In this document: positions 16,644 through 37,499 of the stretch, piece by piece
Position numbering within the stretch: the first letter of the stretch is position 1
Layout of the letters: each line of letters starts with the position of its first letter
DNA from: Halopiger goleimassiliensis
GTDB lineage: Archaea > Halobacteriota > Halobacteria > Halobacteriales > Natrialbaceae
Length of the DNA stretch: 64,000 nucleotides
Reading direction: 5' to 3'
Assembly (NCBI RefSeq): GCF_000455345.1
Contig: NZ_HG315690.1
Location: 1,687,360-1,751,359 of the forward strand
The notes under the pieces: generated by a model
Told to the model about the DNA's origin: nothing
The model's database searches: none
The model's input: only the letters and a program-made list of their open reading frames with translations
Made by a program: the position numbers and the translations under genes

Positions 16644-16728
16644 TGCAGGGAGCAGGATTTGAACCTGCGGACTCCTACGAGACAGCGCCCTGAACGCTGC
16701 GCCGTTGGCCTGACTTGGCTATCCCTGC
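16644..16728 (-). tRNA. tRNA-Leu (CAG)
   Basis: Class II tRNA of about 85 nt. Acceptor arms GCAGGGA / TCCCTGC, T-arm with GGTTCAAATCC, a long variable arm, and anticodon stem CAGCG/CGCTG around loop TTCAGGG give anticodon CAG. It lies inside the ribosomal/RNAP operon between rpoD and rpl18e on the same strand. Confidence 0.93.
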
Positions 16729-19131: not shown

Positions 19132-19214
19132 CGTCGTGGCGGGGATTCGAACCCCGGAGGCTTGACGCCACATGGTTAGCAACCATGCGCCTTGGGCCGC
19201 TTGGCTACCACGAC
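19132..19214 (-). tRNA. tRNA-Ser (GCT)
   Basis: Class II tRNA of 83 nt. Acceptor arms GTCGTGG / CCACGAC, T-arm GGGGTTCGAATCCCC, long variable arm, and anticodon stem CATGG/CCATG around TTGCTAA give anticodon GCT. It lies directly upstream of the rps13 operon on the same strand and may share its transcript. Confidence 0.93.
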
Positions 19215-33107: not shown

Positions 33108-36353
<3,246 letters not shown>

Positions 36354-36417
36354 ATCCTCGTTCTTTCGACCTGGCAGTGTTCAGATAATACCTCGAGTAA
36401 TACTGGAACGGGGAGAA

Positions 36418-36628
36418 CACCACGAAAGCCCCTGCCGTTCTCGGCCGTTCTGACTCGCTGCGCGCGCTCCCTGCGGTCGCGTGCTTACGTCGTCGGAACG
36501 GCCGAGACCGACAGCCCCTTTCAGTCCCGCCCACGGTGGCCTGTCCGTCCAGCCGACACAGGTGGGAATGAACGGGGCTGACGCGCGTGGCGGTAACGCC
36601 GCCACGCATGTCAGGGGCTTTCGTGGTG
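36418..36628. repeat. 211-bp structured element with 17-bp terminal inverted repeats
   Basis: Outer arms CACCACGAAAGCCCCTG (36418-36434) and the exact complement (36612-36628). Three internal hairpins: A, 11-bp perfect stem 36440-36450/36496-36506 with a 45-nt loop; B, 20-position stem 36512-36531/36561-36580 with 17 standard pairs plus one G-T; C, 9-bp stem 36585-36593/36599-36607 with 5-nt loop. Only 4-5 nt link the stems, so the whole block folds as a four-way junction. No coding frame of substance and no clear target-site duplication. Could be a MITE or a structured RNA. It fills most of the 396-bp gap between carB and the TraB gene. Confidence 0.7.
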
Positions 36629-36749
36629 GTTTGATCGTTTCTGTGTGGGACGTATGTAATCTGACCATCACCTTCGACCTCCGCCTCTCTTGTCGGATCG
36701 GTTATCCGAACGTGACCGTTTGAAGCCGGTGGGCCTCGAACCCGTGGGT

Positions 36750-37499
36750 ATGTCGACCCCCGGCTCCGTCACCATCGTTCCCAGCGTCCACTTCTCGCCC
36801 GTCCACCGCAAGCGCGTTCGCGACACGATCCGCGAGGAAGAACCCGACGTCGTCGCCGTCGAACTCGACGAGTACCGGTTCGAGCGCCTCGAGCGCGAGG
36901 CGGGGGCGGATCCGTTCGATCTGGCCCGCGAGTTGCCGCCGCCCGCGGCGATGACCTACACCACCTTGCGAACGATCCAGCGGACCGTCGTCCGGCTGTT
37001 CGGCCTGGACCCCGAGACGACCGACATGGAGGCGGCCATCGAGACGGCCGCCGAACGGGACCTCGAGGTGGCCCTGATCGACGAACCGATCCGGGACACG
37101 GTGGCCGCGCTGTCGGATCGGGTGGGGCTCGACACCCTGCCGAAGCTGGTGCTGCGAGCACAGCAACTCTCGCCCGCCGATCAGGCCAGGGCGACCGAAC
37201 TGATGGCGGTCCCGATGACGGAGATCGAGGACGGCGACGACGTCCAGCCGGCGATCGAGCAGATGCGTACACTACTCCCCGAAGTCGCCGAGGTGATGAT
37301 CGATCGACGGGATCGAACCATGGCCCGGAACCTCCACGCGCTCCGCCAGGACGGCCACGACGTCGTCGCCGTCGTCGGGGCCGGCCACCACAACGGCCTC
37401 GTCAACCACCTCGCGGACCTCGAGGGCGAGACGGTATCGGACGTCACGGTGCCAATTCGGCCGCCGACGCGGAACGTAACCCGCATTCCGATCGAGTGA
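36750..37499 (+). CDS. TraB domain-containing protein
   Basis: A 249-residue TraB-family protein: VTIVPSVHFSPVHRKRVRDTIREEEPDVVAVELDEYRFERLE at the start, and VVAVVGAGHHNGLVNHLADLE near the end, the paired His-containing motifs of TraB/PrgY/GumN proteins. Lacks the C-terminal membrane helices that longer archaeal members carry, so probably soluble. PrgY-type proteins inhibit pheromone peptides; the archaeal role is unknown. I chose ATG 36750 as the family starts directly at the first strand. Confidence 0.8.
   Translation: MSTPGSVTIVPSVHFSPVHRKRVRDTIREEEPDVVAVELDEYRFERLEREAGADPFDLARELPPPAAMTYTTLRTIQRTVVRLFGLDPETTDMEAAIETAAERDLEVALIDEPIRDTVAALSDRVGLDTLPKLVLRAQQLSPADQARATELMAVPMTEIEDGDDVQPAIEQMRTLLPEVAEVMIDRRDRTMARNLHALRQDGHDVVAVVGAGHHNGLVNHLADLEGETVSDVTVPIRPPTRNVTRIPIE

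Follow-up and report, generated by a model that had tools for sequence, protein, structure and literature searches.

Analysis of a 64,000-nucleotide stretch of the Halopiger goleimassiliensis genome (hereafter the window; contig NZ_HG315690.1, positions 1,687,360 to 1,751,359) identifies positions 36418-36628, very probably, as the core of a 300-bp archaeal IS6-type (ISH14-like) MITE, a core made of nested, strand-symmetric palindromes that undergo inversion. The IS6-type MITE is a known kind of element; a core whose nested palindromes are strand-symmetric, covary, and invert was not found described in the literature searched (mainly open-access, ISFinder not included) and may tentatively be considered new. 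In the proposed history, an IS6-type transposase acting in trans would have inserted the element between carB and a TraB-family gene, making the TTCGACCT duplication. The core is a nested palindrome, with a conserved 17-bp inverted repeat around a central hairpin, likewise conserved, and two hairpin arms that are heterologous to each other. The arms would have been kept matching, most likely, because one strand of a stem served as template for the other when the extruded hairpin was replicated or repaired. The inverted repeats also serve as inversion endpoints, such that the core flips between related species. The family is a natural system, in organisms with laboratory genetics, for direct measurement of palindrome repair, hairpin-bounded inversion, and MITE movement.

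Fold and extent of the element in the window

A first-pass annotation of the sequence had described 36418-36628 as a compact four-way junction with pairing far beyond chance, and the fold is confirmed in all four of its helices. The outer stem pairs CACCACGAAAGCCCCTG (36418-36434) with CAGGGGCTTTCGTGGTG (36612-36628) at 17/17 positions. It encloses a first hairpin inside 36435-36511 that includes an 11-bp helix, a central hairpin in which CAGCCCCTTTCAGTCCCGCC (36512-36531) and GGTGGGAATGAACGGGGCTG (36561-36580) are paired at 18/20 positions, and a third hairpin of 9 bp between GCGTGGCGG (36585-36593) and CCGCCACGC (36599-36607). The minimum free energy of the interval is -83.6 kcal/mol as DNA (shuffles -46.5 +/- 3.5, z -10.7) and -143.3 as RNA (shuffles -90.4 +/- 4.4, z -12.1), a stability reached by 0/200 shuffles. 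The structure of the annotated interval stands, whereas its extent does not: the element is larger, occupying 36373-36672 plus target duplications.

The whole 300-bp element lies between carB, which ends at 36353, and the TraB-family gene, which starts at 36750. It is bounded by an 8-bp target-site duplication, TTCGACCT, with the left copy (36365-36372) identical at 8/8 positions to the right copy (36673-36680), which directly follows the mirror-image end; TTCGACCT is the sole 8-mer common to both 90-nt flanks. The left terminus, GGCAGTGTTCAGATA (36373-36387, plus strand), is an IS6-type end matching the consensus GGCCGTGTTCAGATA at 14/15 positions, and this end sequence is also carried by 697-bp IS6-type elements with an intact transposase, such as L271. 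The right terminus (36658-36672, minus strand), reading GGTGATGGTCAGATT inward, is a degraded IS6-type end (10/15 to consensus); this degradation counts against the assignment, as does the lack of a recognisable duplication in most old copies. Inside the termini, the left outer spacer (36388-36417) reaches to the 17-bp stem and has a length fixed across copies, together with a conserved outer box that keeps its register among them (about -45 to -33); the right outer spacer covers 36629-36657. The 17-bp stem is a conserved subterminal inverted repeat, its left half on the plus strand and its right half on the minus strand, and the positions of the left half are mostly at least 90% conserved (72 flanks). 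Within it lie arm 1 (36435-36511), a variable-stem hairpin with internal CTCGCTGCG...GTGCTTACGTCG, the sequence-conserved central hairpin (36512-36580), and a short third hairpin, GCGTGGCGG-TAACG-CCGCCACGC (36585-36607). This third hairpin makes the window copy atypical, as most complete copies have a third arm of about 75-85 nt in its place. Similar hairpins occur in L073 and L074 of genome G017; as a separate dispersed repeat, the hairpin is not supported, with one copy each in the own genome and G017. A 102-aa frame and others cross the element, but none is gene-like by context and all are mechanical ORFs only; the element is short and without a transposase gene, as a MITE is. Only two congeners (G017, G057) were seen to have the carB-traB gene order; in both, the element is absent and the sequence too diverged for a clean empty site.

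The 17-bp repeat was considered as the terminal repeat and dropped in that role after flank analysis, which put the real ends 44-45 bp further out. One identity offered by the annotation, a MITE with 17-bp terminal inverted repeats, accordingly survives in part: the IS6-type ends, the 8-bp duplication, and the repeat family bear out a MITE, whereas the 17-bp stem is subterminal, 44-45 bp inside the true ends. A matching transposase gene with CACCACGAAAG ends, for which the annotation had suggested a search, was not found, nor were long pairs of such repeats in the own genome or G017.

A dispersed family with IS6-type ends

The element is multicopy and dispersed, and related places are numerous in the own genome, where the 15-nt inner repeat has 21 matches within one mismatch as against 1 for a control pattern. 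The copy number, derived from searches, is high; the case in which the annotated structure would be a single unconserved copy without covariation is not what was found, since copies are many and covariation (see below) is strong. A comparison set of 76 distinct complete copies was assembled, nearly all from Natrialbaceae. Copies are frequent in a few genomes of this family (G000, G017, G058, G113, and G005) and rare or absent in others, and a GTDB genome scan found them in Natronococcus, Haloterrigena, Natribaculum, Natronolimnohabitans, Natronorubrum, and Salinadaptatus. Beyond Natrialbaceae, repeat matches are near background. Two plasmid-borne sets of more distant relatives, from Halobacterium sp. 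DL1 and Halobaculum sp. XH14, have a side arm and one half of the central hairpin in addition to the repeat CCTCGAAAGCCCCCG; in XH14, about 220 nt are enclosed by the central hairpin. Viral contigs and phage records held no match to the element, and a literature search with the repeat's own sequences returned nothing relevant, haloarchaeal repeat papers treating general classes only.

A typical copy comprises, in order, a 44-45 bp outer segment, the 17-bp repeat CACCACGAAAGCCCCTG, arm 1, the central hairpin CAGCCCCTTTCATTCCCACCC...GGGTGGGAATGAAAGGGGCTG, arm 3, the inverted 17-bp repeat, and a second 44-45 bp outer segment. Over the 76 copies, the outer stem and the central hairpin hardly vary, while the side arms, of about 75-85 nt with conserved internal CTCGCTGCG...GTGCTTACGTCG and in some cases further small hairpins, differ in every copy. 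Several arm types can be distinguished, among them A (TCCGGTCGA...GTCTTCCCGGA) and B (CTCGACCNTCC...GGGATCGA). Arms within one element are less alike than arms of different elements (mean identity 0.33 vs 0.46, permutation P 5e-5, 22 elements). Among elements with both sides classed, none combines A with A or B with B. Two equal arms would form one hairpin of about 250 bp; since long perfect palindromes are unstable, loss of such copies is a sufficient explanation for the unlike arms of each element. In L073 and L079, both of G017, a nearly identical 138-nt arm is held in common and the other arms are different, which suggests that single arms may be exchanged between copies. The arms of L058 (2559-2990), L072, L075, and L076 hold arrays of small perfect hairpins with different sequences and constant linkers (GTTCG...CGTGATGAC...CGAACCACG), a second level of the variable-stem, constant-joint design.

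At a constant distance of about 45 nt outward from the 17-bp repeat, the flanks of these copies have in common a box, GnnGTGTTCAGA, which in the window starts at 36373. A box score of at least 10 is reached by 27.6% of ends (1.6% when shuffled), with a modal position of -45, and an 8/8 duplication in the same offset range is present in 6/76 copies (control mean 0.12, maximum 3 in 300 shuffles). Searches with the box led to elements of 688-698 bp on a plasmid of G057 and in G058. The ORF of one of these gives a hit to NF033587, a transposase model for the IS6 family (E 6.9e-29), which stays under the cut-off since the ORF is truncated. A genome search with NF033587 then gave L271, a 697-bp element with an uninterrupted 213-aa frame (170.5 bits, cut-off 125), ends GGCGGTGTTCAGATA and GATCGTGTTCAAATA, and an exact 8/8 duplication, GTTTCAGG. 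The MITE has an 8-bp target duplication as in its parent IS and terminal inverted repeats as in the autonomous IS. ISH14 itself is 696 bp long, its relatives 696-698 bp, with GG ends and an 8-bp duplication (PMC6807381). The element is filed here as an archaeal IS6-type MITE because its ends and 8-bp duplication match those of L271-type and ISH14-type elements, although membership of the archaeal elements in the IS6/IS26 family is itself disputed (PMC6807381). No intact IS6 transposase was found in the own genome, only a fragment; the mobilising enzyme would therefore have been lost or have come from elsewhere, and the window copy is probably immobile now. This only remnant, L274 (G000:C1:2645263-2645415 with flanks), belongs to a 254-bp derivative shortened by deletion, which has GGTGGTGTTAAGTTAGGA and GGTCGTGTTAACTTAAGC at its ends and is flanked by an exact 8-bp duplication, AACTAAGC.

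Several described repeats invite comparison. The archaeal IS6-type IS (ISH14, ISH29, and the ISHarch12-14 group; PMC6807381, Table 5) have in common with the element GG-type termini, TGTTCAGATA-like ends, and the 8-bp duplication, but are about 697 bp long and encode a transposase of about 211 aa, whereas the window element is 300 bp long, has no transposase, and shares the ends alone. MITEHarch3, named as an IS6-family MITE (PMC6807381) and filed under that family in ISFinder, is likewise transposase-less, and its name suggests a haloarchaeal host; the comparison covers its family listing and its name. The MITEs and short mobile repeats (SMRs) of Haloquadratum walsbyi (PMC3119063) are, like the element, short, non-coding, furnished with inverted repeats, and moved in trans or by unknown means; those families are described by terminal repeats and high identity, whereas in the present family the arm sequence has fully diverged with pairing kept. 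REPIN- and BIME-type bacterial repeats are also dispersed intergenic palindromes (PMC3116915, PMC3733652); unlike these, the element is not tied to a tyrosine transposase, is much larger, and has ends with an 8-bp duplication.

Arm pairing and inversion of the core

Pairing was assessed over the first nine stem positions of 48 side arms (432 cells). Standard pairs make up 91.9% of cells, compared with 62.0% in shuffled controls, which leave shared ancestry in, and at most 41.4% in slid controls, which, like the pair types, depend little on ancestry. Changes on both sides were found at 8/9 stem pairs, with a covariation score of 0.680 vs 0.152, so that the stem covariation looked for in related copies proved strong, and all four Watson-Crick types occur at several stem positions. 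Compensatory base change is what normally proves that an RNA is functional; here such change is strong, yet is better explained by DNA-level processes. A structured non-coding RNA from the intergenic region, its four-way junction selected as RNA, had been among the identities suggested at first. The great stability of the RNA fold and the strong compensatory change in arm stems would agree with it, as would the fact that different genera retain elements at shared loci. Covariation in an RNA stem should, however, proceed by way of G-U pairs, and these are nearly absent (G-U or U-G in only 5/432 cells). A selected RNA should also tolerate G-U on one strand, whereas mismatches are balanced in every orientation tested: over all stems there are 41 G-T and 55 A-C mismatches, with no excess variance between copies, and with copies oriented by arm type 38 and 30. 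The near absence of G-U and this G-T/A-C balance tell the DNA-level case from the RNA case. In addition, the Rfam scan of the window gave tRNAs only (genes at 2754-2838, 16644-16728, and 19132-19214), element orientation has no bias to gene strand, many copies occupy the space between a pair of divergent promoters and fall outside either transcript, and a flip of the core at orthologous loci would destroy any promoter-RNA arrangement. An RNA is, on these grounds, extremely improbable; the nested palindromes mimic a conserved RNA, and no RNA is needed to explain them. Arm stems differ in each copy yet remain complementary and show no strand preference, and for this reason arm pairing, as read from the compared copies, is maintained at the DNA level. 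The mismatch balance fits a process or constraint acting alike on both DNA strands. The third of the first suggestions, a cruciform DNA site, gains from this pairing and from the use of the stems as inversion endpoints, described next, a support that lies at the level of sequence evolution.

Inversion was examined in 18 pairs in which both flanks are orthologous and copies occupy one locus in two species; the pairs are non-independent, as some loci give several. For the sequence enclosed by the 17-bp repeats, the inverted alignment is the better one in 9 pairs and the direct one in 5, with 4 undecided, the 9/18 inversion calls resting partly on modest score differences and arm exchange being mixed with inversion at some loci. 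Two inversion cases are unambiguous. Between L102 and L206, which adjoin uvrB in two congeners, identity is 250/269 inverted and 201/278 direct, and the central loop is identical only when inverted. Between L052 and L205, identity is 224/269 inverted and 194/289 direct. The right outer flanks are collinear in both pairs (39/45 and 44/45, respectively). Comparison of orthologous loci shows, at this level, that the core flips between related species with the inverted repeats as endpoints. Simple inversion does not explain a further feature of the best inversion pairs, the replacement of one 45-nt outer flank. In L102/L206, L052/L205, and L115/L198, of the two outer 45-nt segments, one is almost identical and the second about at chance in ungapped comparison; gaps may account for part of this difference.

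Core inversion between defined inverted repeats at orthologous loci, together with the fact that the 17-bp repeats are the most conserved part, is what would be expected of a site-specific invertible switch, in which a dedicated recombinase acting at these repeats flips the core and so regulates the neighbouring genes. Such a switch is nonetheless very unlikely. The polarity of the central hairpin is random relative to arm order (8/7/6/4), and in L052/L205 inversion of the core is accompanied by a separate flip of a single arm (69/81 identical on the same strand vs 47/87), both of which indicate that unrelated inner stems also act as endpoints; moreover, no promoter is evident in the core, and none of the elements was seen to have a dedicated recombinase beside it. 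Because several unrelated stems act as endpoints, the data speak for a general mechanism of inversion at hairpins, which may be recombination, annealing, or template switching, over one dedicated recombinase. Hairpin-associated small inversions occur in plastid genomes, where loop segments flip between the stems of an inverted repeat. The loop flip is alike here, but is nested at three levels and in an archaeal mobile repeat.

Placement beside genes

Genes next to the copies were called by a simple rule (acidic open frames) and not from annotation; on this basis, 28/83 facing start codons are at a distance of 90-94 nt from the 17-bp repeat, several divergent pairs having a distance near 92 on either side, and facing stops lie mostly from 44 nt outward of it. 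Such clustering might reflect adoption of the element by the host, with the cruciform or its binding protein being useful, for example as a topological insulator between promoters, and the structure kept by selection. Orthologous loci in different genera do keep copies, and arms are always of unlike type, so that a junction is preserved and a single long hairpin avoided. The spacing also follows, however, from a unit with 44-45-bp ends entering minimal intergenic space, and avoidance of equal arms follows equally from the instability of long perfect palindromes. With a patchy distribution (the rqcH copy is present in only 2/30 species examined) and neighbouring genes without common function, host use is improbable. 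A related reading, doubtful as well, would make the core a maintained DNA four-way junction in which each stem is an independent inversion endpoint and the strands are continually re-matched because the extruded junction is used, for example by a junction-specific protein in mobility or as an insulator between divergent promoters.

For an IS6-type MITE, the placement can be read in either of two ways: IS6-type insertion favours DNA by the transcription complex, or compact intergenic regions retain only those insertions that fall exactly at the promoter edge. The rqcH promoter, GAGCGACACGTCTTTTTGAC, is identical whether the element is present or not, and its distance from the end of the element is equal in both copies. 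In the flanks of the 76 elements, facing-gene starts lie 92 +/- 2 nt from the inner repeat in about one third, as if insertion had targeted the upstream edge of the promoter complex.
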